Shown: positions 8,900-57,009 of the stretch, in pieces | How positions within the stretch are numbered: the stretch's first letter is position 1 | How the letters are laid out: every line of letters begins with the position of its first letter | Virus record (IMG/VR): IMGVR_UViG_3300030389_002537 | Location: 1-61,719 of that record | Reading direction: 5' to 3' (one strand) | DNA length: 61,719 bases | From: a virus | Notes under the pieces: model-generated | Seen by the model: the letters and a program-made list of their open reading frames with translations, nothing else | Told to the model about the DNA's origin: nothing | Databases searched by the model: none | Program-made: the position numbers and the translations under genes

Positions 8900-8905
8900 A
8901 ATCAC

Positions 8906-8913
8906 TAAATTTG
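8906..8913 (+). promoter_or_regulatory. TAAATTTG promoter -7 element, leaderless type
   Basis: TAAATTTG, then four bases (TAAT), then the ATG at 8918. Matches TAnnTTTG with the same exact spacing seen at 18, 35565, 42803, 57567 and 59321. Confidence 0.6.
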
Positions 8914-8917
8914 TAAT

Positions 8918-10144: not shown

Positions 10145-10146
10145 AA

Positions 10147-17800: not shown

Positions 17801-20570
17801 GCAAGATATAGAAGTTTTCAGAGGAAGTAAAGTTCCTGAGTCTCAAGACTTTGAGATGGCTATGGATATCATGTACGGTAAAGTTCGTACAGATCTAGAG
17901 GCCTTGGAGGTTGTACTTGCAGAAATACAGAGCTCAATGAACACTGCAAACCTTACGGCAGAGCAGGTATCTGATTATCTATATGCTAAGCACGCAGAGG
18001 AACGTAACAAAAAGATAGAGAGCACTAGACCTGAAATGAAGGATGGTTCTGGTATGACTACAGAAGAAGCTGGAGAGATAATACAAGAGTTAGAAACTCC
18101 AGAAATGGTAGCCATATCTAAAATGGTGTATTCAGTAATTGAAAACACGCGTAAGACTATGGTTCAATCTGGATTAGAAACCTCACAAGTTATAGAAGTT
18201 TGGGAAGGATTGTATAAAAACTACGTGCCTCTTAACGGATTATCTGCAGATGAAATAGACGGAAACAACTCATCGTATCCAACAGGCGGTGCTGGTATGG
18301 CTATCTACGGTAAAACCACAAAAGCTGCAAAGGGTAGAGCAAGTAAAAGCGGAGTAAATCTTATAGCCAATGTAATTATGCAGAACGCTATGGTACAGCA
18401 AAAGGCTCGTAAAAATCAGGCTATGATGTCTCTGTACAATCTTGTAAAAAATAATCCAAACAAAGAGGTGTGGGGCATATTCTCTACAAAAAAACCCATG
18501 CAGAAAACCAACAAAGAGGGCAAGAGGGTTAACATGAATGAGTTTGAGATGAAGTCAGACAGACGCATGGTGCCTATAAGGGTGAACGGAGAGCAACACT
18601 TTATCTTTTTCAAAAAATCAGACTATGCAGATGCTTTAAACGGCATGACTGAAGAGAAATTATCTAAAGTATTTAAGGTGATGTCAGGTCCTATGACGTT
18701 TATGCGTAATGCATTCACGCAGTACAACCCGTCGTTCTTTGTAGGTAACTTCTTTAGAGATATACACGGTGCGGTCTTTAATGTTATGTCTGAGATTGAG
18801 AGAGAGGGCGGTATCCTTCAGGGTTACGACATTAATACTAAGAAGTTTACTTCGTCTCTTGTTAAAAGATCATTCTCTGTGCTTGGACACTTATTAAAAG
18901 ACAGTGCGTTTAGCAGAGAGATGAGCCCAGAGATGAGAGAGTATCTTACAGAGTGGGAGGCTGCAGGCGGTAGAACAGGATTCTCTTATTCTGAAAGTAT
19001 AAACAACGTAATAGAAAATCTTAGGGTTGATGCAGAAACTCCAGGTAAAGTCAAGGCTGCTACTCAATATGCTTTTTCAAAACCAAAACAATTTTTCCAG
19101 TATGTAGCTAATGTAAACGAAGCATTCGAGAACAGTATAAGGCTGGCTGCATATATAGAAGCTAGAGAGGCAGGGGTAACTAAGCAAAGGGCAGCTCAGC
19201 TATCTAAAAATATCACCATAAACTTTAACAAGTCTGGTGAATTGGGACCGTCTCTTAATCAGACATTCCTGTTCTTTAACGCTGCGGTGCAAGGTGCTAA
19301 CAGATTTAGCAGAACATTCGCAACATTAAAAGCAGAACTACCAAATAATCCAGACGAAACTACAAGCTGGAAGAACAGAGTTACAAGCGCACAAAAAGTT
19401 GCAGCTGGTATGGTTTTACTTTCAGGACTTCAGACTATATTGAATATGTCTTTATCTGGAAGAGATGATGATGGAGAATTATACTACAATAAAATACCAG
19501 AGTATAAAAAAGAGAGAGGATTTATTATATGTTACGGATCAGGACCTAATGACTACATCTCTATACCTTTAGGATACGGCTACAATATGTTTAATGTTTT
19601 TGGCATGCTGCTAGCGGAGGTATCTGCAGGTGCTAGACATTACGACGACGCTCTTGTTGACTTTGGTTTATCTTCTTACAGCGCATTCTCTCCTATAGCA
19701 ATGGGTAATACCGACGAGCTTGGACCAGCAATTTTAAAGTCACTTACCCCAACAGTAGCAAAAGCTCCTTTAGATGCTTTCGCTTGGAACGAGACTTATT
19801 TTGGTGGTAAAGTTTTCCAAGAGCAGTTCCCGTTTGGGGCTGAGACTCCAGTATCAACAATGTCGTTTAGATCACCAGATGTTGTACAAGATTTATTTGT
19901 AGGGCTGCATGAAATGACTGGCGGTAGAACGTATATTGACGGAACTCTTGAAGTGAATCCAGATCCTTATTACTACATAGCTTCATCATATTGGGGCGGA
20001 GCTGGTGATTTTGTAATGGATGTAACAACCTTAGGTAGAAGTGCTTACGTAACTGGAGCTAGAAAGTATAATGCTCTTATAAGCACTAGAACTAACGAAG
20101 AGTTTATAGAAACCCTATTCAAAACTCCTCAAGAAGACAGGCCAGTTATAAGATTCAATGACGTACCTATTGTTAAAACTATATATGGTGCAGGAGCATC
20201 TAGGTTCTATGACTTTGATTTATACGAAAAGAATGTATACGAGGTTTTACAATTTGATAAGGAACTTCGTAAAGGTACTGTTGAATCAAGAAAAGGGGTT
20301 GACTTTACAGGAATACAAGCTTTAAAGAAAGAGTATTTAAAAGTAGAAGAAGCTTTAAAAGTTATAAGAGAAGAAAAGAAAAAAGCTAGGGATATTGAAG
20401 ACTATATTGATAGAAGCAACAGAGCGTATCAATTGCAAGAAGCTGAGCGTCAGTTAGTAACTATATTCAATGCGAAATATTATCAACTAAGAGGTCAATA
20501 CCTCGATCCAAAACCACAAGGATTTATACCTATAAACGATATTAGAAAAATACTAGGAACAGATGAGTAA
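11868..20570 (+). CDS. Giant polyvalent/ejection protein with zinc-protease motif
   Basis: A 2900-residue protein, the largest in the window. An HEFGH zincin motif lies at about residues 1104-1108, followed by a helical region. Glycine-rich hydrophobic stretches near residues 590-620 and 725-760 could insert in a membrane. The segment from about residue 2275 (MRNAFTQYNPSFFVGNFFRD) resembles the C-terminal region of large polyvalent proteins of phages and mobile elements (LPD38-type), which are delivered into the host. The C-terminus is a charged coiled coil. Likely a virion cargo protein that cuts host or phage proteins after ejection; I see no RNA polymerase active-site motif. The true start is probably 11768 if the T10 run is one base too long. 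Confidence 0.6.
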   Translation: MQGGGHVDLYDQVVDSGSNYQFISEDSLLNTVPIDLDLGIPEQIDLDEDYDFTTHQYNWNDLDPSFGLGDYVSNRNAWQDNADYHVGGYLDPSYQPVVPNQEHYDNTISEIVGSAPIAPEPLDEGLISLLPPESRQYRIDLYNNSVIKYNEDLEVYKTNLESADNQYNKQFVQPFNEYVEAVNNDHERNIKLDMQGKNALSYIFRVASQDSIDKMIQKDSEGNFMNLTPFGTMDLSLLKIAPLNNSPFKLPNGEILDRGNIQLEDLYQGTAEDFISIINEEAEAEKQKAIATLDQKISEVQTTLNLIKTPSKKRSYERQLEDLTEEKQNIMDSETFGFDITARKYFENYVFKNMMLSEDEWRSSTLMSRGRADDPNIDMEAAGFGTYKDYVGRLEKKIYADLLYNKEGYEFAQAVGMPHFGLVLDEDVAVGERNARFADAALSWRQGVNQLEGMIDATGATYEQISNLGIPLVGARSPVNQSPFLNALDFGIGAFNYYVMGGSEDPTDENQAIRDALFKRDQERNRRISELESQKTKFAVTGQQLDLLGSDAILNEGTRVEQISSIFNQARRDMVFSEQIDPAIQSMPTSLAVMSVALATSVPTGGSSLVAAGAGGLTMGTLVTNRTYYDSFSNPIFYEKNPDGSVDWSKSKISETERHAMSFMHGGAEGLGEGLGTFVTFGVGKFALTPAKFSPYSMFKGSPGSVGVTKFSGGRKLLDYGFGLTYSMGIGAGEEFIAEGTTGVAQMAIDSYFSGETYTTAQYAERFMKDGKIGAWAGMGMTGGAYSVGVAKANLYEKNFAPEVYSQKVFDTYTNQLTSSGFFFNGVDKSKLKQLNKALATIRKETASGGTFMNLTDVQKDAVKLATELTEELNTSQVRDGLLLQNLYDSGRGDLVAEVVAIDNRLLYLNSVLSEYTQNENGQWFDSEGNPAEDPTNMELYKAGQLLSETTKKQYRAEMKTLQNRMDLIRTMAEADFIHSPDYTPAAREVGVGNWRENEYYNTEDGANSYSEVVYDQEKGEVQGNVNQEYSDIINRYSEAAAGQAKIVQHTTRESMLAVTGDASALAFYKEATIEERKSGTIDELHVYVGEGQSVESLEREMIHEFGHFALRDIVADKETRESLVSQILEIDNDNVKNTVNQVREAYPDVSQEVLEIEIINHFMQDVATGQLSQTDITQGFESWGLNIMNAAGKLGVTSSDAILRDKDSVVKLAAKYSNFVNRNGGITGIRTPGQAQAVKTQRQAEAAMQESKTSDGAGLAAKKFNYLENTKIYYTEVVSKEGRDAISRISSVRERTADLSDYNHFRNLYAKLTGNGVAPSRMKDIYFIKDGKRFDVKPPRPKTNKKGEVLQMEVPKRMTYNERKLAMAVETQEYEDMLAQERADLMGEVGDLWKNNDKSISLYTNFLDFNPTIKGEFDLGPRSRTIESINSDIEDYVIAKQNIQALIDSDITEDDLKALAGRDNKISRSEHPNIFNMMGLRKAETHTQKADRLTNSMEGKGAVWQLLPKDSPSYEKRIPDLRLATPAELQYASDRFDRIEDEPLDGDLLDIDTSEPTGLAARSINYDKRKAIFKGVTAENFNDFVNGKIKSGSIQSFEDLKNLMREANMLDSTGKLRMSLHNVDRTMVGPGSLPVHGDTFNFHLSGGPMGNSVAAMQGANIGHNTTTRQSSINITNYADKAKQNNDTYLLGLKLLSEENSFGNPQVFKVAVQYTLQYLQNEKTSEAIQDFLVDSFNSFFNNKSYVAGLRTTKEDAEKVISLLGKKFQPFGMVDGVTMQTGSMQINSRQGLINFLEEISNASLDEITSNTSFADRASLAGRLFKTRVGLSAQPGFVSQEQFLDAVNQNEYKGVENGAVVNATLMDVNNTNLHGIKGVSGHLKGVGANALAESTSYNFGVTGHITTFHFEKPLSNEGVQEMHSRQQTSSDFLASRRLPGRIYTQGLSAWEQSTPTAYGATLQRLATRLQDRFSDVLLLQQDIEVFRGSKVPESQDFEMAMDIMYGKVRTDLEALEVVLAEIQSSMNTANLTAEQVSDYLYAKHAEERNKKIESTRPEMKDGSGMTTEEAGEIIQELETPEMVAISKMVYSVIENTRKTMVQSGLETSQVIEVWEGLYKNYVPLNGLSADEIDGNNSSYPTGGAGMAIYGKTTKAAKGRASKSGVNLIANVIMQNAMVQQKARKNQAMMSLYNLVKNNPNKEVWGIFSTKKPMQKTNKEGKRVNMNEFEMKSDRRMVPIRVNGEQHFIFFKKSDYADALNGMTEEKLSKVFKVMSGPMTFMRNAFTQYNPSFFVGNFFRDIHGAVFNVMSEIEREGGILQGYDINTKKFTSSLVKRSFSVLGHLLKDSAFSREMSPEMREYLTEWEAAGGRTGFSYSESINNVIENLRVDAETPGKVKAATQYAFSKPKQFFQYVANVNEAFENSIRLAAYIEAREAGVTKQRAAQLSKNITINFNKSGELGPSLNQTFLFFNAAVQGANRFSRTFATLKAELPNNPDETTSWKNRVTSAQKVAAGMVLLSGLQTILNMSLSGRDDDGELYYNKIPEYKKERGFIICYGSGPNDYISIPLGYGYNMFNVFGMLLAEVSAGARHYDDALVDFGLSSYSAFSPIAMGNTDELGPAILKSLTPTVAKAPLDAFAWNETYFGGKVFQEQFPFGAETPVSTMSFRSPDVVQDLFVGLHEMTGGRTYIDGTLEVNPDPYYYIASSYWGGAGDFVMDVTTLGRSAYVTGARKYNALISTRTNEEFIETLFKTPQEDRPVIRFNDVPIVKTIYGAGASRFYDFDLYEKNVYEVLQFDKELRKGTVESRKGVDFTGIQALKKEYLKVEEALKVIREEKKKARDIEDYIDRSNRAYQLQEAERQLVTIFNAKYYQLRGQYLDPKPQGFIPINDIRKILGTDE

Positions 20571-21000
20571 GAAAAAAATTAAAGACACCAAGCTTGGATC
20601 TTGGTTGGCAGAAAAAGCACCACAAGTATTAGGTGTTGTTGGGGATCTTCTACCAGACAGCGGTGGGCTGGGTGTGGTAAAAAATCTTATAGACAAAGAC
20701 GATACTGTTGATTCAACTGAAGCTCAACAAAAAATAGATGCAGAGGTTAGATTTCAGGAAAATGTAACAGAGCGCTGGAAGGCTGACATGGGCAGCGATG
20801 TTAAGCTGGCTAAACTTATACGCCCTGTTACACTTATATGCCTGATGGCTATGTTCATGATTACCATGATGATTGACAGCATGGATAACGTAGCATTTAA
20901 TGTAAAAGATTCATACGTTTCTCTACTTGAGCTACTTATGTTGACCGCCTTTGGTGCTTACTTTGCAGGACGTACTATTGAGAAGAAGGGGAAGAAATAA
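20563..21000 (+). CDS. Holin-like protein, GTA 3TM holin type
   Basis: A 145-residue protein with an amphipathic N-terminal region and the pattern KLAKLIRPVTLICLMAMFMI (about 82-101). Two clear membrane segments lie at about 88-104 and 121-136, and it ends in a lysine-rich tail. This is the layout of the family called Holin of 3TMs for gene-transfer release (PF11351). It overlaps the giant gene by eight bases and is the last gene of the rightward transcript, as expected for lysis timing. It converges with the leftward arm, overlapping by 26 bases. Holin function is inferred from the family. Confidence 0.6.
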   Translation: MSKKKIKDTKLGSWLAEKAPQVLGVVGDLLPDSGGLGVVKNLIDKDDTVDSTEAQQKIDAEVRFQENVTERWKADMGSDVKLAKLIRPVTLICLMAMFMITMMIDSMDNVAFNVKDSYVSLLELLMLTAFGAYFAGRTIEKKGKK

Positions 21001-21415: not shown

Positions 21416-23277
21416 TCTTGAATATCTATATCTTCCATGTTAATATCATGTATAGATGTTATTGGCGTGCATTGTGATTTAATTTTATTATATGTTTTCT
21501 TATCTATTTCTTCAAGCGGAGCTTGATCAAAGCCATGGTCGTTGTGTAATAGGAATGACACGGACTTTACATTTACGTAGTTCTCGCGTAACCACGCTTT
21601 AATTTCATCTAATTCTTCTTTCCTATAGTAAACGGTCACTGACACTGAGTTATCGCTCCATTCAGCCTGTAATCGCTTTATAACCTCAAGTTGATCTACT
21701 GCTGACATATCGGCCGCAAACTTAGTGCCTTTTGGAAACTTACATGGAAACTCTACAACGACTGTAGAATGATCCTCTGTGCCGTCAAAGTTTCTTACAT
21801 ATTCTATGCGAAAGCCATTGTTTCTGCACACGCTGACCAACTCGCTATCAGCAGACATTCGTATTCGCCTAATGTAGTATTCGGAATATCCAGGGTGTGC
21901 TCCTGGTGTAACGCCAGCAAGTAAACTAAGCGTTCCTGATGGTTTAACTGTTGTAAGTTTAATAGATGTTGGGAATCCCGCATCTCTAGAGTAAGTTCTA
22001 TCATATTCACGTAGGTAAATATAGCAACTTTCGAGCCAACTACGTTGTTCTTCTGTTGCCTGTAAATAACCTGTCACACCTATACCCATTCTCATGTGTC
22101 TGTGGACAATATGTTCTGTCTCTTTGACAGCACACCTTATAGACAAGCTGTGCTTGTTGATGCGGTACAGGTAGACAGCTACCTTTTTAAGTTCTTTTTC
22201 TGACTCTATATTCGGTAAATATATTTCAGCTAGACAACATGTCTCAAACGGAGCTAGAGATTGCTCTGCACATGGATTATAACCCATTACATCTGGATCA
22301 GGGTATTGCATCTCACCTGTCCTACCCATACGCCTTGAAGCTTCTAGATTAATTAAGCCATACGGTTCTCCGTTACCTTCGTAGCCACCCCAGAACTCAT
22401 CAGGCAGTTGATCTATATCATCACACACCACTGAGTTATTTGACATCGCCCTCCAGTTAGGTATACCGCCTAGGTCCCATCGCTTTGCACGTAGATATTC
22501 TAGATCGTCATGATCTCCTAATGCAATCTGAGCTGATCGTCTTACATTACCAGCCACAACTATCTTACCTATAATGTTCATAATATCAAGACAATCAATA
22601 GGTTGTAGTCTTTTATTAGAGCGATTGTTTAAGATGTTATTAATTTCTTGCATGCCCCATATAAGATCCTGGCTACCTGAAGCTGTACCTCCGAAACCTT
22701 TTATTGGAGAGCCAGCTGGTCTAATTAAGTGCGTTGCATATGTAAACCCTTCACCTGTAACGAAGCTTGCTTCAAGTACACGTTTGAGTAATTCTGTCCA
22801 TCCCTCACGAGAATCAGGCACAATGAAGTCAGCGCCATTATCGTTTACGTTTTCTATCTTAACCTTACGTTTTACTTTTGGTAATTGATATACATGCTCC
22901 CTTTGTATGTTGTAGCCAACTCCTGATCCAAGCATAAGCATTTCAAACGCCCAGGTGAATGGACGTATAGGTTCGTCAACAACAGTGAACGCACAGTTTT
23001 GTAGAGAGGGTAAACCTAATTTATCTACAGTTTTTGTGCCAAGTTGCCACAAGAATCTACCAGCAACAGTGCCTTTTAGATTCATCATCATGTCTTTTAT
23101 TTCACCTTGTTCGTACTTATTGAAGTCACATCCTAGTTGTTTGTTACACGCTTCGACAACCCTGTCAACCGTGTCTTCCCACTCTTCTGAGCCTTCTTTC
23201 ATTGGTCTTGCATACGTTCTTTTATAGGTAGCGTATCCCACCTCCCCCCAGGGGATGTCTTCTGATTTGTACTTCAT
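21385..23277 (-). CDS. nrdJ: Class II (B12-dependent) ribonucleotide reductase, monomeric type
   Basis: A 630-residue enzyme that reduces ribonucleoside triphosphates to deoxy forms using adenosylcobalamin. The N-terminus has the YKRTYAR start typical of this group. QNCAF near residue 93 provides one active-site cysteine. NPCAEQ near residue 335 holds the thiyl cysteine and FETCC ten residues on holds the second redox cysteine. PSGTLSLLAGVTPGAHPGY near 447 is the phosphate-binding loop. The C-terminal CATGACPV supplies the reducing cysteine pair. It is shorter than the 730-residue Lactobacillus-type enzyme. Part of the nucleotide supply for phage replication; requires host B12. Confidence 0.92.
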   Translation of the reverse strand: MKYKSEDIPWGEVGYATYKRTYARPMKEGSEEWEDTVDRVVEACNKQLGCDFNKYEQGEIKDMMMNLKGTVAGRFLWQLGTKTVDKLGLPSLQNCAFTVVDEPIRPFTWAFEMLMLGSGVGYNIQREHVYQLPKVKRKVKIENVNDNGADFIVPDSREGWTELLKRVLEASFVTGEGFTYATHLIRPAGSPIKGFGGTASGSQDLIWGMQEINNILNNRSNKRLQPIDCLDIMNIIGKIVVAGNVRRSAQIALGDHDDLEYLRAKRWDLGGIPNWRAMSNNSVVCDDIDQLPDEFWGGYEGNGEPYGLINLEASRRMGRTGEMQYPDPDVMGYNPCAEQSLAPFETCCLAEIYLPNIESEKELKKVAVYLYRINKHSLSIRCAVKETEHIVHRHMRMGIGVTGYLQATEEQRSWLESCYIYLREYDRTYSRDAGFPTSIKLTTVKPSGTLSLLAGVTPGAHPGYSEYYIRRIRMSADSELVSVCRNNGFRIEYVRNFDGTEDHSTVVVEFPCKFPKGTKFAADMSAVDQLEVIKRLQAEWSDNSVSVTVYYRKEELDEIKAWLRENYVNVKSVSFLLHNDHGFDQAPLEEIDKKTYNKIKSQCTPITSIHDINMEDIDIQDCATGACPVR

Positions 23278-43060: not shown

Positions 43061-45175
43061 TTGAACGTATTATTATATACTGAAGAGTATGATGAACCTG
43101 CTATCAAGATTTGCCCCAACGGTTCGGAAGGTGAGATTATCGAACTCGGTGGGCTACTCATTTGCCTTCCAAAAAGGCCGACGAAGAAAAACATTATCGG
43201 ATATAAAGAACCAGACTCTATGCAAATGTGGAGAAGGATATCTATGCCGAAGGAACTGTCTCGTATTCGTTCTATGGATGAGTGGGCAGAAATGCCAAAA
43301 CAGTTTAGAGAGAAGTTTCGTCCATATATCGAGGAAGAGTTTAGGCGTAGGCGTGAGGGTTTTTGGTTTTATAACAACGGTACACCTACATATATTACGG
43401 GGAGGCATTACATGATGCTTCAGTGGAGCAAAATGGATATAGGTTATCCTGACTATCTTGAGTTCCAACATGAAATCTTTCTACACATGGCTGCATGCGA
43501 GGCTGATCCACGTTGCATTGGTCAGCTTTATACTAAGTGCCGTCGTTCTGGGTACACTAATATATGTTCTGCTGTACTTGTTGACGAAGCAACACAAGTT
43601 AAAGACAAGCTGCTCGGCATACAGTCAAAAACTGGTAAGGACGCTCAAGAAAATATTTTCATGAAGAAGGTGGTTTATATGTTCAGAAACTATCCTTTCT
43701 TCTTTAAACCTATACAAGACGGTACAACTAATCCACGTATGGAGCTAGCTTTTAGGGAACCGTCAAAGCGTATTACAAAAAACAACAAAACATCACAAAC
43801 TGGTGAAGCGCTTAACACAGTTATAAACTGGAAAAACACAACTAACAACGCATACGATGGTGAAAAGCTACACATATTGTATTTAGATGAAGCAGGAAAA
43901 TGGGAAAAACCTACAGACATAAGAGACGCATGGAGGATTCAGAGGACTTGTTTGATCGTCGGAAGAAAAATCGTGGGAAAGGCTTTGGTGGGAAGCACGG
44001 TAAATCCGATGAGCAAAGGGGGAAAAGAGTACAAAGAGCTATGGGCGGACTCGAACCCTTTGGAGAGGAACGCGAATGGTAGAACTATAAGCGGGCTATA
44101 TAGATTATTTATACCAGCCCAGCAGGCTATAGAGGGCTTTTTTGATAAATATGGCCAGCCTGTTGTAGGCACACCAAAAGAAGCGGTGGAGGGTATAGAT
44201 GGTGATATGATTTCTATAGGGTCTAGGGAGTATTTAAAAAACGAAAGAGAGAGCCTTAAGCATGATCCTTCAGAACTTAACGAGGTAACTAGGCAATTCC
44301 CTTTTACCACAGACGAAGCCTTCAGGGATAGTATCGAGGGTAGTATATTTAATATAGGTAAGATATATCAGCAGATAGAATATAATGACGAGCTGTTTCC
44401 AAATCCCGTAGTAAAAGGTAACTTTATATGGAAAGAAAAAGATAAAGAGGTTGTATTTAGTCCAGACGTAAACGGTAGATTTAAGATAGCATGGATGCCG
44501 CCAGAATCTCAAAGAAACGTAGTGAGAGTAGATAGAGGTAAAAGGGTACCGCCTTTTTCAGATAGAGGATGCGGTGGTGTGGATAGCTATGATCTTGACG
44601 CTACGCTAGACGGTAGGGGTTCAAAAGGTGCCTTGCATCTTTACAATAAATTTCATATGGAGAATCCATCAAATATGTTTGTTGTTGAGTATGCATCCCG
44701 TCCAGATCTTGCAAAAATATTTTATGAGGATGTTTTGATGTGTGCATTTTTCTATGGGTACCCTATACTAATAGAAAACAACAAGTATGGTATAGCAAGG
44801 CACTTTGAATCAAGAGGTTACGACGGATATCTTATGGATAGGCCTCAACATTTAAAAGGTAGCACAAAGACTGTTTCTGTAAAAACTAAAGGTATACCAT
44901 CAAACTCTCAAGACGTAATACAATCACATGCTCAAGCAATAGAATCGTATATACATGAACACGTTGGTGTAAACTATGAAACAGGAAATATAGGGAATAT
45001 GTACTTCAATGATACACTTGAGGATTGGATAGGATTTAAGATAGACAAAAGAACAAAATTTGACTTAACGATAAGCTCTGGATTAGCTTTGTTGGCTGCT
45101 CAAAAAAGCAAGCCAAAGCCTAAAAGTAACTTTACTGAAAAGCAGTTTTTTAGGAGATATAAGGTAACTGGATGA
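43061..45175 (+). CDS. terL: Large terminase subunit
   Basis: 704 residues. An N-terminal ATPase has a deviant Walker A (TKCRRSGYTN, about residues 157-166) and Walker B LYLDEAGKWE with catalytic D/E near 276-277. The C-terminal RNase H-like nuclease has GGVDSYD and, further on, LIENNKYG and DRP motifs typical of Bacteroidota and crAss-like phage terminases. It cuts concatemers and drives DNA into the prohead. Begins with TTG; no nearby in-frame ATG fits. The portal gene follows at a spacing of 19 bases. Confidence 0.88.
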   Translation: MNVLLYTEEYDEPAIKICPNGSEGEIIELGGLLICLPKRPTKKNIIGYKEPDSMQMWRRISMPKELSRIRSMDEWAEMPKQFREKFRPYIEEEFRRRREGFWFYNNGTPTYITGRHYMMLQWSKMDIGYPDYLEFQHEIFLHMAACEADPRCIGQLYTKCRRSGYTNICSAVLVDEATQVKDKLLGIQSKTGKDAQENIFMKKVVYMFRNYPFFFKPIQDGTTNPRMELAFREPSKRITKNNKTSQTGEALNTVINWKNTTNNAYDGEKLHILYLDEAGKWEKPTDIRDAWRIQRTCLIVGRKIVGKALVGSTVNPMSKGGKEYKELWADSNPLERNANGRTISGLYRLFIPAQQAIEGFFDKYGQPVVGTPKEAVEGIDGDMISIGSREYLKNERESLKHDPSELNEVTRQFPFTTDEAFRDSIEGSIFNIGKIYQQIEYNDELFPNPVVKGNFIWKEKDKEVVFSPDVNGRFKIAWMPPESQRNVVRVDRGKRVPPFSDRGCGGVDSYDLDATLDGRGSKGALHLYNKFHMENPSNMFVVEYASRPDLAKIFYEDVLMCAFFYGYPILIENNKYGIARHFESRGYDGYLMDRPQHLKGSTKTVSVKTKGIPSNSQDVIQSHAQAIESYIHEHVGVNYETGNIGNMYFNDTLEDWIGFKIDKRTKFDLTISSGLALLAAQKSKPKPKSNFTEKQFFRRYKVTG

Positions 45176-45180
45176 TTTAC

Positions 45181-45188
45181 TATATTTG
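45181..45188 (+). promoter_or_regulatory. TATATTTG promoter -7 element
   Basis: TATATTTG, six bases, ATG at 45195. A TTG start inside the box at 45186 is not credible. Confidence 0.6.
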
Positions 45189-45194
45189 CATAAT

Positions 45195-47606
45195 ATGTAC
45201 GGACAAAATAACGTAAATAAAAAGAACGGTTTTCCCGATCCGTTAGCGGATCAACAAACCAAAGAGTCTGATGCATACGGACTACAGTACGCAAAGGCTA
45301 TTCACGCTCAGTGGGGCGAAATGAACGAGGTGTCTTCTCTGTATGCTAGAAGAAACAAATTGTTTGATAGAAACAGAGATTATTCTAACGGTACTCAGGA
45401 TACAACTATATATAAGCAGCTTTTAAATTCTTTATCACCAAACAAGGGTGACGGAAGTCTTTTAAATTTAGATTACACTCCAGTACCTATACTCCCAAAA
45501 TTTGTAAAAGTAGTCGTAAACAAAACTTTAGCAAGAGATCCATACCCAAATTTAGAATCTATAGATCCATTATCATCTTCTGAGAAGAATAAGAGAAAGG
45601 ATAAGATGAGAATGCAAGTGGAGGCAAAAGAGTTATTGAAGTCTTTGAAAGAAAAAACAGGTGTTGTTCTGGATATGGATCCAGATAATATACCAGACAC
45701 GTTAGAGGAGGCTGAAATATTTATGGATACTAACATTAAGACTGATGCTGAGATAGCTGCTCAGGTCGGGACAAACATGACATTATCCTGGAGTAACTTT
45801 TCTGATACCACATATAGAAGAGCTGTTAACGATATAGTTACACTTGGCATGGGTGTTGTTAAAAGAAGGAATGATCCTAACCAAGGCATATCGATAGAGT
45901 ATGTAGATCCAGCTTCTTTTATACATAGCTACACGGAAGATCCAAATTTTGAGGATTTAGTATATGCAGGAAGTGTAAAGAGAATGTCTATTCAGGAGTT
46001 GAAGAGAATGTCAGCTGGGTCTTTTACCGAAGAGCAATACAAAGAAATAGCAGATAAGGTTAAGAATAAAAGAGGCAACGATGCAAACAAGATGTCTCTA
46101 CAACACTACGACGACCGCCTCAACAGAACAAACTATGGTTATGACGAGTATATGGTTGATGTTTTAGATTTTGAGTTTATATCTGTAGACACCATGTTTT
46201 TTGAAGAAAAAGAAAGTAGACACGGTAATAACGGATTTTACTACAAAGGTTTTTCTTATAAAGAAAAGTCTGGTAGTGTCTTCGAGAGGACTCCTCACAA
46301 GATGGAGATGGCTGTTGTTTATGGAGGCTGCTACATCTTGGAGGCTGACAAGCTTTTTAATTACGGTAGATCTAAGAATGTACCAAAGAACATTCACGAT
46401 ATATCAAAATGCAGACTTTCGTATTCTGTAGCAGCTACCAATATCAGAAGAATGATACCTAAATCTATGGTAGAGAGTTGTTCTGGATTTGCAGATATGC
46501 TACAGCTTACACATCTAAAGATACAGCAAGCGATAGCTAAAGCTAAGCCAGACGGTTTAATTATAGATATTGAAGGTTTAGAGAATGTACAGTTAGGTAA
46601 AGGCGGTGAGTTGCAACCTCTAGAGCTACATGATATATACGAACAGACTGGTGTCTTCTATTACAGAAGTAAAAATCCAGAGGGAGGATTTCAAAACCCA
46701 CCTATACGTGAGATAGGAAATACTATAAGAAACATAAATGAGCTCATAGGTTTGTATAATCACTACATGCAGCTTATTAGAGATACGACGGGTATCAATG
46801 AGGCTATGGATGCTTCTACACCAAAAGGTGATGCTCTTGTAGGTGTTCAGCAGCAAGCAATCAATGCTGGTAATAATGCAATATATGATATCACAAACGC
46901 ATCAATGATGTTGTTTAAGAGGGTTTGTCAGGATGTTGTTAAATGCTTACAGATACTTCCATCGGATTCAGTTCTATACAAGATATATACAAATGCTATA
47001 GGCGAAGAAAACATGAATGTACTTACTTCGTTTAAGGAATTGTCTATGTACAACTTCGGGGTGCATGTTGTTAAGGAGATGGAAGATAAGGATAAAGAAT
47101 ATCTGGAGATGAATATACAGATGGCTATACAGCAGCAACAGATTGATTTAGAAGATGCCATGGCTATAAGAAACATCAAGGATGTTAATCAGGCAGAAAG
47201 GTTGCTTATTATACGTAGAAAAAAGAGAATGCAGGAGCAGCAGCAGATGGCTATGCAGAATTCTCAACAGCAAGCTCAACAAGCTGCAGCGGCTGCAGAA
47301 CAAGCTTCAGCAGCTCGTATGCAAGAATTGCAAGCGCAAGCTCAAATAGACCAGCAAGAGATACAGTTGAAGGGTCAGCTTGAAATGCAGCTAGCTCAGA
47401 TGAGACATGAGTTCAATAAAGAGATTGAAACAATACGAGCTCAGGCTACTCTTGGATTTAAAGAGGATGATCAAAATTTCAAAGAGAAGCTAGATATAAT
47501 GAAGGAGGATAGAAAGGATCAACGTCAAGAGGATAATGCAGAAAATCAAATGAAGATCACACAAATAGCTCAGGGTGAGGAACCAGAGCCACAGCAAATG
47601 ATGTAA
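45195..47606 (+). CDS. Portal protein
   Basis: 803 residues. Order and length match large crAss-like and podovirus portals. A body with NMTLSWSNFSDTTYRRAVND, the YVDPASFIHSYTEDP wing and IQQAIAKAKPDGLIIDIEGL core leads to a long C-terminal coiled coil rich in Gln, Ala and Glu (about 660-790). Forms the dodecameric gate through which terminase packs DNA. The start is set at the ATG following the promoter. Confident by position and pattern. Confidence 0.82.
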   Translation: MYGQNNVNKKNGFPDPLADQQTKESDAYGLQYAKAIHAQWGEMNEVSSLYARRNKLFDRNRDYSNGTQDTTIYKQLLNSLSPNKGDGSLLNLDYTPVPILPKFVKVVVNKTLARDPYPNLESIDPLSSSEKNKRKDKMRMQVEAKELLKSLKEKTGVVLDMDPDNIPDTLEEAEIFMDTNIKTDAEIAAQVGTNMTLSWSNFSDTTYRRAVNDIVTLGMGVVKRRNDPNQGISIEYVDPASFIHSYTEDPNFEDLVYAGSVKRMSIQELKRMSAGSFTEEQYKEIADKVKNKRGNDANKMSLQHYDDRLNRTNYGYDEYMVDVLDFEFISVDTMFFEEKESRHGNNGFYYKGFSYKEKSGSVFERTPHKMEMAVVYGGCYILEADKLFNYGRSKNVPKNIHDISKCRLSYSVAATNIRRMIPKSMVESCSGFADMLQLTHLKIQQAIAKAKPDGLIIDIEGLENVQLGKGGELQPLELHDIYEQTGVFYYRSKNPEGGFQNPPIREIGNTIRNINELIGLYNHYMQLIRDTTGINEAMDASTPKGDALVGVQQQAINAGNNAIYDITNASMMLFKRVCQDVVKCLQILPSDSVLYKIYTNAIGEENMNVLTSFKELSMYNFGVHVVKEMEDKDKEYLEMNIQMAIQQQQIDLEDAMAIRNIKDVNQAERLLIIRRKKRMQEQQQMAMQNSQQQAQQAAAAAEQASAARMQELQAQAQIDQQEIQLKGQLEMQLAQMRHEFNKEIETIRAQATLGFKEDDQNFKEKLDIMKEDRKDQRQEDNAENQMKITQIAQGEEPEPQQMM

Positions 47607-48036: not shown

Positions 48037-48194
48037 TGAGTATTACAATAAATACATCTACAAGCAGTATGGATATAACAGAGCCTGTTGTAGTGACTAC
48101 AAAAGTTACTGAATCTTCTGTTATAACAACTACAGCTACACATCCTACAAAACTTAATATAGAGGTTACACTTAATTCAAGATCATTAAGATGA
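48036..48194 (+). CDS. Small Thr/Ser-rich protein
   Basis: 52 residues of beta-favouring Thr, Ser and Val. TAATG overlap with the previous gene and ATGA overlap with the next, so translationally linked to the T9SS protein. Unknown role. Confidence 0.6.
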   Translation: MSITINTSTSSMDITEPVVVTTKVTESSVITTTATHPTKLNIEVTLNSRSLR

Positions 48195-50395
48195 GATATA
48201 TACTATCCGCTTTATTTTTTATGCCTACGTTTCTTTTATCTCAAGGAAGTTGGCTTGATGTTCAGGTTCAAACAGATCAATACGCTGGAGAAAGCTCCTG
48301 GAAAATACTTAGTGATTCAAATATTGTAGCCACCAGCTTCCCTCTTCAAAACAACACTTTACAAAACCAAATGGTATTTTTGCCCTCTGGTGATTATGAT
48401 TTTGTGATGATGGATGCTTTTGGTGATGGGATATGTTGTCAATTTGGAGAGGGTTGGTATAGAATAAGCAATAATTGTGGATTAGACACAGCGGTGTATG
48501 ATTTTGACTCAGCTGTAGACACTATACCTTTTACACTCAATCCATGTATGCCACCTCTTCCTGGATGCACCAATCCTGTTGCTAACAACTACAATCCGTG
48601 GGCTAATATTGATAACGGAAGTTGCAATGTATTTGAGTGCGATTCTACAGAGACTTTGGTTTCTATGGACCTTACGCTAGATACATGGCCTGGAGAAACT
48701 GGATTCACATTAGTTGATATAGCTACTGGTGATTTTTATGATCAAGTGATACCTGGTGAGTTTGATTTTGGGGATCAACTTGCTACATATACTTATAACT
48801 TCTGTGTTAGCTTAGGGTTTGAATTAATATTAGTAGATGAGTTTGGTGACGGACTAAACGGTTATGCGTCAGGCGGTCAGGATGGGGCTTGTGTTATTAC
48901 AGCCTGTGACAGTGTATTATGGGAGCTAGAAGACCTAGCATTTACTACGTTTGACGACGGTAATACAATGTACTCTGGGGCTATATTTACAGAGCCGTGT
49001 CCCCCAGCACCGCCCATTTACGGGTGTATGGATGATGATTATGTAGACTATAATCCAGAGGCTGAGTTGCCAGATACTTGTGAAACGCTACATACCTGGG
49101 GTTGTACAGATCCAGAAGCTTTAAACTACGATAGCACTGCAACAATATCAGACCTTGTAGGCCCATGTAGCATACAGATTATCCTTGAGGATGACGCAGC
49201 TGACGGATGGGGTAATTCTACTATAGGTATGGTGCAGGGTGAGCAACAGTGGATGTTTACTGTAGGACCTGGTGAGTTTTCTCAGTCGTGGAATATCACT
49301 TTAGACTCTGACGAAGAGGTTGATATATATTACTTCCAAGCTGGTAATCAACAGCAATCGTCTCAAGAGCTTGCCTTCCAAACACTACATAACTCAGTGT
49401 ATGTCCTTAATGAAGCTGGAGATACTTTGCTGTCTGAGGGAAGTAATCCATTTATAAACAACGGGCAGGGAGCTCTTCAACCATTTACTGGACCTAACTG
49501 GACGGTGTATCATTTTACTCCTTTTTGTGGAGATGGGTGTATACCTTATGTGTATGGATGTACTGATGAAACTTCATGTAACTACAATCCTGAAGCCAAC
49601 ACAAACTCTGACTGTAACTATCCAGTCCAGTATTACGATTGTGATAATAGCTGCATTAATGATGATGATAGTGACGGAGTATGTAATGAGCTGGAAGTTG
49701 TAGGCTGCCAAGATCCGACCGCTTTCAATTATAATGCACTAGCAACAGATGCAGGCGATTGCATCCCAGTTATCTTTGGCTGTACTGATCCTACGCAATT
49801 TAACTACAACCCAGAAGCTAATACAGAAAACGGAGGGTGTATACCTTATGTATATGGCTGTATGAATCCATATGCGTTTAATTACAATCCAGATGCTAAC
49901 ACAGAATTAGAAGACTCGTGTATTGAAGTGTTAGTTGACTGCATGGACCCTGATGCGTTTAATTACAACGAGTTAGCAAACACTCCTGATGAAAATCTTT
50001 GTCTGTATGATGCTGGGTGTATCACAGGCCCTGGAGAGCCTTATTGGTTAAACGACGGGTGTTACGCATGGATCATAGATATTGACCCATATTGCTGTGA
50101 GGTTGCATGGGATGAAACGTGCGTAGATCTTTACTCATACTGCGAGCAAGGATGGCCGCAAGGAGTGCTAGAAACAACAAGAGATATAACTATATATCCT
50201 AACCCTGCAAGCATGATCTTAAATGTGCAGGCCCCCGTAGAGGCTATTACAAGCCTATATAACGCATTTGGACAGCTTGTAGTGGTTGGGACTACAGACA
50301 AGACAATAGACCTCTCACAGCTCTCTAATGGAGTGTATGAGGTTGTAATAGAATATAATGGAATAATTATTAACAAGAAAATTATAAAATCATGA
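48191..50395 (+). CDS. Secreted repeat protein with T9SS C-terminal sorting domain
   Basis: 734 residues. Sec signal peptide at 1-18. Two regions with DAFGDGICC and DEFGDGLNG resemble modules of Bacteroidota surface proteins. Eight Cys-flanked repeats of the form GC-x-D/N-P-x-A-x-NYN-P-x-A-N follow, at residues 125-615. A WD-x-x-C-x-x-x-Y-x-x-C module precedes the C-terminal domain. That domain (about 662-734: IYPNPA, YNAFGQLV, IDLSQLSNGVYEVVI, KKIIKS) is a textbook type A sorting signal of the type IX secretion system. In the host it would cross the outer membrane by T9SS and be anchored or released. Finding such a gene in a phage late operon, between portal and capsid, is unexpected. Confidence 0.85.
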   Translation: MRYILSALFFMPTFLLSQGSWLDVQVQTDQYAGESSWKILSDSNIVATSFPLQNNTLQNQMVFLPSGDYDFVMMDAFGDGICCQFGEGWYRISNNCGLDTAVYDFDSAVDTIPFTLNPCMPPLPGCTNPVANNYNPWANIDNGSCNVFECDSTETLVSMDLTLDTWPGETGFTLVDIATGDFYDQVIPGEFDFGDQLATYTYNFCVSLGFELILVDEFGDGLNGYASGGQDGACVITACDSVLWELEDLAFTTFDDGNTMYSGAIFTEPCPPAPPIYGCMDDDYVDYNPEAELPDTCETLHTWGCTDPEALNYDSTATISDLVGPCSIQIILEDDAADGWGNSTIGMVQGEQQWMFTVGPGEFSQSWNITLDSDEEVDIYYFQAGNQQQSSQELAFQTLHNSVYVLNEAGDTLLSEGSNPFINNGQGALQPFTGPNWTVYHFTPFCGDGCIPYVYGCTDETSCNYNPEANTNSDCNYPVQYYDCDNSCINDDDSDGVCNELEVVGCQDPTAFNYNALATDAGDCIPVIFGCTDPTQFNYNPEANTENGGCIPYVYGCMNPYAFNYNPDANTELEDSCIEVLVDCMDPDAFNYNELANTPDENLCLYDAGCITGPGEPYWLNDGCYAWIIDIDPYCCEVAWDETCVDLYSYCEQGWPQGVLETTRDITIYPNPASMILNVQAPVEAITSLYNAFGQLVVVGTTDKTIDLSQLSNGVYEVVIEYNGIIINKKIIKS
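48563..50010 (+). repeat. Cys-flanked NYNPxAN protein repeats
   Basis: Eight diverged copies coding GC-x-D/N-P-x-A-x-NYN-P-x-A-N-x-C, clustered at 48563-48625, 49020-49170 and 49555-50010. They are shared with host-type secreted proteins. Confidence 0.75.
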
Positions 50396-50580: not shown

Positions 50581-51653
50581 TGACAAAGAAAAAAGATTTA
50601 ACTGTATTTGTCTATGCCTTGATCATGATCGTGGCCTTTATATTAGGCACCACTCTTGAAGCAAAAGGACAAACTCTAAAGAAAACATTTAAGTATGCTA
50701 CATTCTATACTGCTTTTAGTGGTGGTAACTCTGTGGCTGACGACAACATCTATTCCGTGACGAATGGTTTACAGACTGATATTGTTGAAACTCCTTTTGA
50801 TTATTCTATTACAGCTGGTGTTCGTAAGATCGCTAGATTTGGATACGAAAACAGGGCTAATGTTTTTTATGACGGTACAGAAAAATCTTACAGTGATGCA
50901 GCAAACATCGGTAAAGTAAAAGGTTTTGAGTTTTTGTTTGAGGCTGACTGGCGTAGACAACAAGGTAGAAACTTTTTAGATCAAGACTATTTCTTACGAT
51001 ATGTAGCAAAAAATTGGATAGCTAAGGTTGAATACCTGCAGGATGGTTTTGCAGATGTACAATACTTCGAGGGGTCTCAGCGATTAAGACTTAACATAAA
51101 CGACCGCCTCAGTTTTAACATTGGTGTTGCTCAACGTATATCAGAACCTTACGGCTATGATGCTTTAGAAGAGTGGGTGTTGTTAAACAACAATATACAC
51201 TACACAAGCCTCGCTCTACAAGAAGGGTATACCGTAGACGTACAAGGTGGTGAATACTTTGCTCCAGATGGCACGCTCGTAGCTAACAGTGTTGATGTTT
51301 GGGAGCAAGTTATTATACCTCAAGTTATTGACGACTACGTAGCTAGGAAGAGAAGTGAGCTTCCTAATGTTTGGAACTATTCTTTAGTAGTTGGGTATGA
51401 TTACTATAAGTATTCTAAAGAGTTTTGGGTGCATAGTTGGGCTAGTGTGATGCCGTACCACCTTAAGACTGACGATGAGTTTTCTTACTTCGAAACCACT
51501 GAAGGGGGGCAATGGATAGATTACGGTGCAGGCCTTATCTTTGGGTGGAGATTAAACAAGAGTCTTGGTGTATTCTTAGAGGGTAAATACAATAAGTATT
51601 GGAATCGAGAATGGCACGATTTCTCTGTCGGACTAAACTATGTGATATTGTAA
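50580..51653 (+). CDS. Outer-membrane beta-barrel protein candidate
   Basis: 357 residues. Hydrophobic N-terminal signal (about 9-30, ending EAKGQT). Alternating polar and aromatic strands follow (for example YSITAGVRKIARFGYENRAN, FLFEADWRRQ, LSFNIGVAQRIS, FGWRLNKSLGVFLEGKYNKYW) and a final strand DFSVGLNYVIL. This is the usual pattern of transmembrane beta-barrels. Lies next to the T9SS substrate, suggesting that both act at the host outer membrane. A virion role is an alternative. Confidence 0.6.
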   Translation: MTKKKDLTVFVYALIMIVAFILGTTLEAKGQTLKKTFKYATFYTAFSGGNSVADDNIYSVTNGLQTDIVETPFDYSITAGVRKIARFGYENRANVFYDGTEKSYSDAANIGKVKGFEFLFEADWRRQQGRNFLDQDYFLRYVAKNWIAKVEYLQDGFADVQYFEGSQRLRLNINDRLSFNIGVAQRISEPYGYDALEEWVLLNNNIHYTSLALQEGYTVDVQGGEYFAPDGTLVANSVDVWEQVIIPQVIDDYVARKRSELPNVWNYSLVVGYDYYKYSKEFWVHSWASVMPYHLKTDDEFSYFETTEGGQWIDYGAGLIFGWRLNKSLGVFLEGKYNKYWNREWHDFSVGLNYVIL

Positions 51654-51937
51654 TGGCTAAACAAATTGGAGAAGATACTAAAGTAACACTAGACCTAAAA
51701 ACAATAGGGATGGGTATAGCAGGGCTAGCAGCCCTTATTGGGATGTGGTTTGCTCTTCAAGCAGACATCGCTTTAGCCATGGAGTTACCAGAGCCAGCAG
51801 ATCCAGAGATTACACGCATGGAGTTTGATATGAAGGACCAGCTAGTACGTCAAACAATTATGACAACTCAAGAAGATGTGTCAGAGCTGAAAGAGGACCT
51901 GGACCGCATCGAAGAAAAAATAGATAAACTACAATGA
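51653..51937 (+). CDS. Membrane-anchored coiled-coil protein, spanin-like candidate
   Basis: 94 residues from the ATG at 51653 (TAATG overlap). One membrane helix (about residues 17-37, GMGIAGLAALIGMWFALQAD) and a C-terminal coiled coil (EDVSELKEDLDRIEEKIDKL). Layout like the inner spanin of lambda (Rz) or small phage membrane proteins. No outer spanin lipoprotein is evident nearby. Confidence 0.55.
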   Translation: MAKQIGEDTKVTLDLKTIGMGIAGLAALIGMWFALQADIALAMELPEPADPEITRMEFDMKDQLVRQTIMTTQEDVSELKEDLDRIEEKIDKLQ

Positions 51938-52272
51938 ATAACTTAATCTACATATGTTTGTTTGCAATTACATCTCTTAGTATGGGTATACCAGATTCAG
52001 GAGTATGTGTTGTTGAGTTTAACGCTAGTTTTAACTCTGCTAACAGTGTAGGTTGGATTGATGAGCTTAGCGACTGTAAAGGCAAGAGGGTAGATATAGC
52101 TGCTGAGCCAGAGCTACAAAAAGAACATAAAATTGTGGTAGTGCCAACTGTAATTATATTTAATGAAGGAGAAGAAGTAAAACGATTTCAAGGCAACATT
52201 ATGATGCAACTTGAGGCAACTCAAGATGAAGTGCAAGAGGCGGTCGATGAAATTATAATGAGTGACTTCTAA
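51934..52272 (+). CDS. Exported thioredoxin-fold protein lacking CXXC
   Basis: 112 residues. A short N-terminal signal-like segment is followed by VVEFNASF, a D-E-L-S-D-C-K helix, KGKRVDIAAEP, KIVVVPTVIIFNEGEEVKRFQG: a thioredoxin fold with the cis-proline loop (VPT). The CXXC pair is missing: the site is SFNSAN. Likely a structural or binding role in the periplasm. ATGA overlap with the coiled-coil gene. Confidence 0.6.
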   Translation: MNNLIYICLFAITSLSMGIPDSGVCVVEFNASFNSANSVGWIDELSDCKGKRVDIAAEPELQKEHKIVVVPTVIIFNEGEEVKRFQGNIMMQLEATQDEVQEAVDEIIMSDF

Positions 52273-52598
52273 TGAAGGTTTGCAAGCATGGATGTAAGAG
52301 TATGCGCAAGGGCGGTAAGATGCCCAAAAAGTTTTCTGTAAAAAGTGGAGACAAGTCTCCTTCTGGCGGATTAACAGCAAAAGGTGTTAGGCGTTATCGT
52401 GCTGCAAATCCAGGGAGCAAATTAAAGACAGCTGTTACAACAAAACCGTCAAAACTAAAGAAGGGTAGTAAGGCGGCTAAACGTAGAAAATCTTTCTGCG
52501 CAAGAATGAGTGGAATGAAGAAAAGGTTAACCAGTGCTAAGACAGCTAGAGATCCAAACTCTAGAATAAATAAAGCGCTTAGAAAATGGAATTGTTAA
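52272..52598 (+). CDS. Basic protein, DUF6321-like
   Basis: 108 residues, very basic, with PSGGLTAKGVRRYRAANPGS, FCARMSGMKKRL and DPNSRINKALRKWNC. This set of motifs is typical of a small marine-phage protein family (DUF6321). First of four consecutive basic genes; probably DNA-binding inside the virion or on packaged DNA. Confidence 0.65.
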   Translation: MKVCKHGCKSMRKGGKMPKKFSVKSGDKSPSGGLTAKGVRRYRAANPGSKLKTAVTTKPSKLKKGSKAAKRRKSFCARMSGMKKRLTSAKTARDPNSRINKALRKWNC

Positions 52599-52779: not shown

Positions 52780-52948
52780 GAAGGTAAAGAAAAAGAAAAT
52801 ACGCTATAAAAAAGGCGGTACGGTAAAGGACGCTTGTTACCACAAGGTAAAGCGTGGCGAGAAAGTATTTCCAAGTGCATACGCTAGCGGAAGAATAGCT
52901 AAGTGTAGAAAAATGGGGGCTGCCAATTACGGGAAGAGTAAAAAATAA
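52766..52948 (+). CDS. Small basic protein, DUF5872-like
   Basis: 60 residues, ACYHKVKRGEKVFPSAYASG and RIAKCRKMGAANYG. Matches a small phage family seen with packaged or virion-associated basic proteins. Shares one base with the next ATG. Confidence 0.65.
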   Translation: MPRVKKVKKKKIRYKKGGTVKDACYHKVKRGEKVFPSAYASGRIAKCRKMGAANYGKSKK

Positions 52949-53199
52949 TGGCGGTACGCAAAACAGCAAAAGGGTTAGCGCTAAAGCGCTGGTTCAAAGA
53001 AAAGTGGAGAACCCCTAGAGGAAAGAAGGGGTATAGTGGAAAGGATAGAACCTTCCGCCCTACTGTTCGCGTGTCATCAAAAACCCCAGCCACATGGTCA
53101 GAACTAACGCCACATGAAAAAGCAAGGGCTGCTAAAGAAAAGCGTACAAAAGGCAGGGTGTCTAGATACAAAATCGTCAAAAAAAAGAAACGTAAATAA
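52948..53199 (+). CDS. Small basic protein, DUF5872-like
   Basis: 83 residues, KRWFKEKWRTPRGKKGYSGK followed by SSKTPATWSELTPHEKARA. Same general group as its neighbour. Nucleic-acid contact is likely because of charge. Confidence 0.65.
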   Translation: MAVRKTAKGLALKRWFKEKWRTPRGKKGYSGKDRTFRPTVRVSSKTPATWSELTPHEKARAAKEKRTKGRVSRYKIVKKKKRK

Positions 53200-55575: not shown

Positions 55576-57009
55576 ATGGCTACTATACCAAGTACAACTG
55601 TTGATATAGCAGGACATGAGATCTTAACGAGCCCGCAAAAATATGCGGCTATCGGTGATCTTTTGAACGCTGCTGCATCAGGAGTTAATGAAGTCGGTAA
55701 ACCCGACGTAAGTGATATGCTGGTTGAAACATACGGAGACCAAGGTATCACTGGATTTTTAAAGATGACAGGAGCAATCACTGCTGCTGGATCTTCTGAC
55801 CAAGTAGAATTCTACGAAGTTGGTCGTCGTCACAAAGTGTTAGCTTACGGAAGCAACATTAACATTGCTTCTAACGAAATTAACCTGCCTCAAGCAGACT
55901 TAACATACGTTACAGGAGCATCAGGCGCTGTATCAACTCCAACAGGAGCTGTACTAGAGGCTGGTGATATCGTAATGGATAAAGTTACAGGTGTACGTTT
56001 AATCCTTAAGGACTTTAATACTACAGCTGCTAACGACTACACATTCATTCGTTTAGATGGTGAAAACGCTTCAGGTACTAATGAAGTTGACACATCTTCT
56101 GGTGGTGAGTTTATCCACATCGGTAACATGTTCGCTCAGGGAACTGATCAACCTACAAACTTTATCCAACCAGATGTTATCCGTAGAATCAATTCTTACG
56201 CTATTGTAAAGGATCGTTTCGAGGTTGCTGGATCTCAAGCTACAAACGTAGGGTATGTAAACATTGGAAACGGTGACTACCGTTGGTTTATGTACGGAGA
56301 GATGGAAGCACGTAAGCGCTTTATGGACCGTCGTGAGATGACTCTTCTATTCGGTGAGTTAAACGATGGATCTAATGACTTTGGTGGTGCAGGATCTGAG
56401 GGTTACATTACAGCTCTTGAGTCTCGTGGTATCCAAATCACAAATGCTAACTCTAACCCAATGGATAGCTTCTCTGAGTTTGATGATCTTATTCTTGAGC
56501 TTGATAAGCAGGGAGCGCCTTCTGAGTACGCTATGTACTTAAACAGAAAGCAGGATCTTGCTATCGATGACATGCTAGCTACTGGTATCGCTACTGGTGT
56601 TACTGCAGGTCTTCCTGGTCAGTTTGGTGCATTCAATAACGATTCTGATATGGCTGTAAAGCTTGGCTTTAAGTCGTTCACTCGTGCTGGATACACATTC
56701 CACAAGCATGACTGGAAGCTTCTTAACGATCCTACTCTTGTTGGTGCTTCTACTAAGTTCCAGGGTGTTATGGTACCTCTTGCTAACGTAGCTGACGCTC
56801 GTTCAGGCATGAAGTCACCAGCTCTTGAGATGAAGTACAAGGCTGCTAACGGGTACTCTCGTGAAATGGAGCACTGGGTAACAGGCGGTGGTGTGTTAGG
56901 TCACACAAACAATGGAGGTACAGGTAAGGACGTTGCTACGTTCCACTACCGTTCTGAAGTTTGTTTATTAACTCGTGCTGCTAACCAACACGTTCTTCTT
57001 AAGGGTTAA
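55576..57009 (+). CDS. Major capsid protein
   Basis: 477 residues. The opening SPQKYAAIGDLLNAAASGVN and the following strands fit the HK97-type major capsid proteins of Bacteroidota podovirus-like phages. Codon use differs from its neighbours: about 18 of 20 Arg codons are CGT/CGC while most other genes prefer AGA/AGG, and GCT, GGT, CTT are favoured, as in very highly expressed genes. Follows the scaffold by 15 bases. No promoter of its own is seen; a terminator lies after the next gene. Confidence 0.82.
   Translation: MATIPSTTVDIAGHEILTSPQKYAAIGDLLNAAASGVNEVGKPDVSDMLVETYGDQGITGFLKMTGAITAAGSSDQVEFYEVGRRHKVLAYGSNINIASNEINLPQADLTYVTGASGAVSTPTGAVLEAGDIVMDKVTGVRLILKDFNTTAANDYTFIRLDGENASGTNEVDTSSGGEFIHIGNMFAQGTDQPTNFIQPDVIRRINSYAIVKDRFEVAGSQATNVGYVNIGNGDYRWFMYGEMEARKRFMDRREMTLLFGELNDGSNDFGGAGSEGYITALESRGIQITNANSNPMDSFSEFDDLILELDKQGAPSEYAMYLNRKQDLAIDDMLATGIATGVTAGLPGQFGAFNNDSDMAVKLGFKSFTRAGYTFHKHDWKLLNDPTLVGASTKFQGVMVPLANVADARSGMKSPALEMKYKAANGYSREMEHWVTGGGVLGHTNNGGTGKDVATFHYRSEVCLLTRAANQHVLLKG

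Follow-up and report, generated by a model that had tools for sequence, protein, structure and literature searches.

The window analyzed here is the complete 61,719-base IMG/VR record IMGVR_UViG_3300030389_002537, and the gene under study, here named T9, lies in its head-gene region. Upstream are a large terminase gene (43061-45175) and then a portal gene (45186-47606), both clear head-packaging genes, and downstream, with about ten genes in between, is the gene of a head/virion structural protein in the capsid position (55576-57009). The original prediction of a 734-residue protein with a Sec signal, located between portal and capsid genes, is borne out in both coordinates and features. The N terminus of T9 (MRYILSALFFMPTFLLSQ, followed by GSW) is compatible with a Sec signal peptide, as judged by inspection and alignment, and its homologues retain K/R, a hydrophobic core, and xxQ at this end. 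Eight cysteine-flanked repeats were also found as predicted, the first reading GCTNPVANNYNPWANIDNGSC, but the motif NYNPxAN assigned to them describes only about half, the remainder being NYN, NYD, or DYN variants.

The C-terminal domain (CTD) of T9 exceeds the curated cut-offs of both TIGR04183 (E=6e-9, 35.8 bits; cut-off, 23) and PF18962 (E=5.7e-9, 36.6 bits; cut-off, 27), in agreement with its earlier description as a canonical type A sorting domain of the type IX secretion system (T9SS). The model of this domain is an Ig-like beta-sandwich. It matches the NucA type A CTD as solved in complex with the T9SS (8glk_D; template-modeling score of 0.75 to target, 30% identity) as well as the CTDs of RgpB and mirolase, and matches to solved CTDs were also obtained by sequence. 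A fold search with the whole protein retrieved nothing informative outside the CTD. With these features, T9 is a predicted phage-encoded type IX secretion substrate of type A.

T9 is followed by genes for a candidate outer-membrane beta-barrel (OMB), a small transmembrane protein (g112a), and an exported thioredoxin-like protein (TRX), which together with T9 are referred to below as the module (Table 1). All junctions from g142, the gene after the portal gene, to g108, the gene after TRX, abut or overlap by 1 to 4 nucleotides, and this stretch is therefore probably one operon. Scans for a promoter or terminator of the module's own remained at chance level, with the sigma-70 consensus as the only promoter type covered and Bacteroidota promoters outside the scan. 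The AlphaFold2 model of OMB presents about 12 long strands at modest confidence (predicted local distance difference test score, 66), and its Foldseek matches are the porins NanC and KdgM as well as viral outer-membrane proteins, which supports with modest confidence its assignment as an outer-membrane beta-barrel. By sequence, OMB gave nothing convincing in Pfam, PHROGs, or the PDB, and no match was found in isolated phages. Two candidate homologies were rejected, that to PorP/SprF (TIGR03519; hhalign probability of 3.7 to 20%, over the signal peptide only) and that to PorV (NF033709; 7%). TRX scores 22.3 bits against PF00085, slightly under the cut-off of 23.5, and the CxxC active site is missing in all 17 aligned TRX sequences. 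The hydropathy profile of g112a peaks at approximately residues 16 to 43, indicating one transmembrane segment, and its coiled coil was judged by eye; no significant family match was obtained. A regular-expression scan of the window for a lipobox retrieved no lipoprotein in the module. In addition to the DUF6321 protein g108, a short basic DUF5872 protein (52948-53199) is encoded near the module.

Table 1. Features of the T9 locus and the holin-like gene of the window
Feature	Position	Strand	Basis or remark
Holin-like gene	20563..21000	+	phrog_3427 holin, E=1.2e-22; PF11351 sub-threshold; adjoins the module in many relatives, not in the window
Small open reading frame, 52 residues	48036..48194	+	Overlaps T9 start by ATGA
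T9, T9SS type A cargo, 734 residues, 37 Cys	48191..50395	+	ATG start, TGA stop; TIGR04183 and PF18962 over cut-off
T9 predicted Sec signal peptide, residues 1-18	48191..48244	+	Sequence; kept in homologues
T9 Cys repeat 1, residues 125-145	48563..48625	+	
T9 Cys repeat 2, residues 278-297	49022..49081	+	
T9 Cys repeat 3, residues 304-326	49100..49168	+	
T9 Cys repeat 4, residues 456-475	49556..49615	+	
T9 Cys repeat 5, residues 505-524	49703..49762	+	
T9 Cys repeat 6, residues 530-550	49778..49840	+	
T9 Cys repeat 7, residues 556-577	49856..49921	+	
T9 Cys repeat 8, residues 583-604	49937..50002	+	
T9 predicted T9SS type A sorting domain, residues 668-733	50192..50389	+	TIGR04183, PF18962; fold matches 8glk_D, 7pq4, 8qb1
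g62, small Cys-containing open reading frame, 62 residues	50392..50580	+	Separates T9 from OMB in many relatives
OMB type 1, candidate outer-membrane beta-barrel, 357 residues, N-terminal hydrophobic/signal segment	50580..51653	+	AlphaFold2 model, Foldseek
g112a, 94 residues, one N-terminal transmembrane segment, then Glu/Lys-rich probable coiled coil	51653..51937	+	Hydropathy
TRX, thioredoxin-like exported protein lacking CxxC, single invariant Cys (C48)	51934..52272	+	PF00085, alignment
g108, Lys/Arg-rich DUF6321 protein	52272..52598	+	PF19846, E=1.8e-19; frequent module neighbor

The components of the module are strictly linked. At least 555 relatives of OMB and at least 516 of TRX were confirmed; TRX adjoins OMB in all 71 fully flanked loci, g112a does so in 48 of 48, and no flanked T9 locus without OMB was found. 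The searches with T9 and TRX were made without OMB, so that the linkage is not circular for these two, whereas g112a came to light only in loci retrieved by way of other genes. In a tree of 107 OMB sequences, T9 is nearby in 101, all of them with OMB of type 1 (101/101), and the six remaining OMBs (type 2) form one sister clade with a support of 1.0, in which T9 is lacking throughout (6/6). The association of T9 with OMB reflects a single transition on this tree. A TIGR04183 search of whole records gave the same picture, with hits in none of eight type 2 records and in all eight of the other records tested. Type 2 OMBs (about 36% identical) are accompanied by the same g112a and TRX and lack the T9SS cargo (L227/L238, L230, L232, L233, L235, L237, and L279), and this contrast is a natural experiment on the contribution of the cargo. 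Both types are found at the portal side, after portal and g142, and at the holin side.

The distances between T9 proteins correlate with those of OMB (r=0.46, p~0.001) and not with those of terminase (0.15) or portal (0.16), and in some phage pairs T9 is 84 to 93% identical compared with 57 to 64% for the portals. The module is missing from several related phage records, some of which are fragments, and is present in phages without a detectable relative of the window terminase, including contig L147. From these patterns, the module appears to transfer as a unit between unrelated phages.

The search of IMG/VR with the T9 protein retrieved 68 other related loci (35 to 100% identity), and T9 stands next to the same portal in independent contigs (e.g., L025, L030, and L068). 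T9SS domains are normally cellular, as a contig chimera or a misbinned host gene would have it; this explanation, its probability now negligible, is refuted by the 68 viral loci and by independent contigs whose gene order is identical. Among aligned T9 homologues, PF18962 is matched by 34 of 34 and TIGR04183 by 33 of 34. The N-terminal region occurs in alternative forms, the number of repeats is variable, and the fastest-changing sequence is the CTD, with its motifs retained. The ratio of nonsynonymous to synonymous substitution rates is 0.02 to 0.07 for the T9 middle region and OMB and 0.12 to 0.36 for the CTD where computable; these values are rough, with many synonymous rates saturated. Purifying selection on the T9 middle region and OMB is strong. 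Tandem pairs of T9 genes (approximately 690 to 710 and 411 to 521 residues) precede OMB in L131, L134 (14135-17454), L182, L187, L191, and L198 and may represent duplication or a split of the cargo. In L018, a 68.6-kb phage record without a relative of the window terminase, T9-like genes (3-2642 and 7989-10199) flank a holin gene.

In isolated phages, the sole match to T9 is a repeat in cyanophage S-CAM3, and a few weak matches to the CTD came from uncultured records. A related repeat is found in a cyanophage protein that bears a virion structural annotation, and T9 is encoded among head genes, as would be expected of a virion component whose T9SS-like tail engages the secretion machinery at entry. 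No evidence was found for this proposal of the original prediction, which is highly improbable: the signal peptide and CTD would direct T9 out of the cytoplasm, where virions assemble, T9 is always tied to exported partners, and the module also occurs outside the head region, beside holin or amidase genes.

The terminase is 41 to 48% identical to those of Flavobacterium elemo and Cellulophaga phages among the matches listed, one of which is an environmental record. These matches point to a Bacteroidota host, probably of Flavobacteriales type, and isolates of the same phage group gave no match to T9 or OMB. A search of genome contigs for a close full-length cellular homologue of T9 found none and returned two loci, a clear phage contig in a Flavobacteriales metagenome-assembled genome (MAG) and a short contig with the same cassette. 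On this search, a cellular origin of the whole T9 protein was rejected. The contig in the Flavobacteriales MAG, NAT55, is L147, which encodes a DnaB-like helicase and ribonucleotide reductase and has the cassette beside an amidase gene. The T9-OMB-g112a-TRX cassette is present on L148, a short contig assigned to an archaeal MAG (Candidatus Nitrosopelagicus) and probably a misbinned phage fragment.

Genomes of the family of the Flavobacteriales MAG, the likely host group, contain PorP/SprF in 31 of 31 cases, SprA in 15 of 16, and the PorV family in 26 of 26. Transport to the cell surface by the host T9SS, one of the two routes originally proposed, is the best-supported fate predicted for T9. 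The same Cys repeats occur in 52 of 52 genomes of the likely host group, and OMB is found in the genomes of this family only on the phage contig, so that the cargo looks host derived and the barrel does not. Among the loci checked, one host open reading frame (L356) combines Cys repeats with a related CTD, most of the other loci being truncated before the frame ends. The claim that the repeats reflect capture from a host gene is thus plausible. These host repeats, together with N-terminal domains and repeat numbers that differ among T9 homologues, are also what would be expected if T9 were a captured host surface protein that alters how the infected cell adheres, aggregates, or binds substrates. 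This role is unlikely, since an adhesin would not need to be tied so strictly to two small envelope proteins and a barrel found only in phages, and the failure to find a close full-length cellular homologue also speaks against it.

The genes that border the module suggest a different role. Among 48 nonredundant loci with both flanks, a lysis gene directly flanks the module in 24, whereas random junctions in these loci would be expected to give 6.7, and none of 2,000 null draws was as high, kinship being ignored. Holin, amidase, M15 peptidase, and DUF5675 were counted as lysis genes; for DUF5675, as for the small holin-like gene of L065/L147, the connection to lysis is assumed. This count replaces an earlier, wider one made without a null, in which 15 of 55 loci had a lysis gene within four genes. 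The lysis gene beside the module varies by phage, with a holin before T9 (L012 and L029) or after TRX (L196 and L237), a holin-like gene before the module and an amidase after it (L147), or an M15 peptidase after the module (L020/L181, L034, and L039). In the large phage records L065 and L066, runs of glycosyltransferase-like genes lie upstream of the amidase, the small holin-like gene, and T9.

These observations are most consistent with a late, lysis-linked envelope module, whose cargo would be shown on the infected cell via the host T9SS and whose most likely effect would be to weaken or open the outer membrane, a reading to which we assign a probability of about 0.4. T9 would be made late, in the overlapping operon with OMB, the inner-membrane coiled-coil protein g112a, and exported TRX. 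Sec and the host T9SS (SprA/PorV) would then take T9 to the exterior of the infected cell, where it would act with OMB. The four proteins would reach from the inner membrane through the periplasm and outer membrane to the cell surface, and the module would weaken or open the host outer membrane in a late step linked to lysis. The identity of the CTD, the operon overlap, the strict linkage, the transfer as a unit, the purifying selection, and the adjacency to lysis genes were computed; the export of T9, its physical contact with OMB, and the lysis step itself we infer. In a stronger form, which is rather unlikely, phages with this widespread module would supply a type A T9SS cargo, a dedicated unrelated barrel, and inner-membrane and periplasmic parts. 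These would form a trans-envelope complex that relies on the host T9SS to position its outer piece and then, at lysis, breaches the outer membrane of Bacteroidota.

Several points weigh against a role in lysis. The module of the window lies between portal and capsid genes, far from the holin-like gene, half of the sampled loci have no adjacent lysis gene, and the adjacency statistics ignore shared ancestry. Furthermore, g112a is short for a spanin, with no lipoprotein partner found in the module, a 734-residue surface protein is unusual for lysis, and the host of the phage is inferred. Most of the same facts are also accounted for by receptor masking or superinfection exclusion, in which the barrel and surface protein would cover or occupy the phage receptor late in infection, block other phages, and keep progeny off debris. 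Llp of phage T5 acts in this way. Masking, a possible though less probable explanation, would suit a mobile module common to unrelated phages and an outer-membrane barrel partner, and it stays close because of the surface destination given by the CTD and because superinfection exclusion has already been suggested for the T9SS cargo of Cryophage (PMC7468147). It is less easily reconciled with strong purifying selection, without diversification, on OMB and the T9 middle region, with the position in a late structural operon rather than among early genes, with the adjacency to lysis genes, and with conserved transmembrane and TRX parts for which masking has no evident need. The role in lysis is favored over masking because of the lysis-gene adjacency, the late operon, and the purifying selection.

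Phage-encoded T9SS cargo has been published before (PMC7468147, Nat Commun 2020; PMC6949934). Cryophage carries type A sorting domains thought to exploit the host machinery, on variable genes that encode an endoglucanase, a GH39 protein, and a PA14 protein (PMC7468147), whereas in the present module the partners of a Cys-repeat protein, namely an outer-membrane barrel, a transmembrane protein, and TRX, are obligate across many phages. The crAss-BACON cluster 2 phages also have T9SS sorting-domain open reading frames near Bacteroidota phage head genes, but these have BACON domains, and the part of the source consulted describes no barrel partner module (PMC6949934). In Flavobacterium johnsoniae, type A CTDs use PorV, whereas type B cargo proteins rely on a PorP/SprF-like shuttle of their own, whose gene frequently neighbors that of the cargo (PMC12618676). 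The barrel gene downstream of T9 is reminiscent of such pairs (PMC12618676, PMC9143113), but T9 carries a type A CTD (TIGR04183), for which PorV is the usual shuttle, and OMB resembles neither PorP/SprF nor PorV at the profile level. The adjacency of a type A CTD to such a barrel gene is the unusual point. Spanins are phage envelope proteins encoded near holin and endolysin genes (PMC6139136), a setting seen for the module in 24 of 48 loci but not in the window, and g112a may share with them one N-terminal transmembrane segment and a probable coiled coil. Unlike spanins, the module has no lipoprotein o-spanin that could be found, includes a barrel and a T9SS cargo, and leaves g112a a periplasmic part of about 55 residues. 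In a survey, 91 of 677 phages had no spanin genes (PMC6139136). A description of the module was not found in the literature searched, with subscription journals largely outside the search.

Little is known of how Bacteroidota phages breach or seal the outer membrane. The module occurs in hundreds of IMG/VR contigs and, if dependent on the host T9SS, would tie the release of phages, or superinfection, to a system that also drives gliding and polysaccharide degradation. The original prediction did not include the four-gene envelope module with its own barrel and its association with lysis genes, nor the phage T9SS cargo already published. Elsewhere in the window, the gene at 21385-23277 on the minus strand has, by eye, the appearance of a cobalamin-type ribonucleotide reductase.
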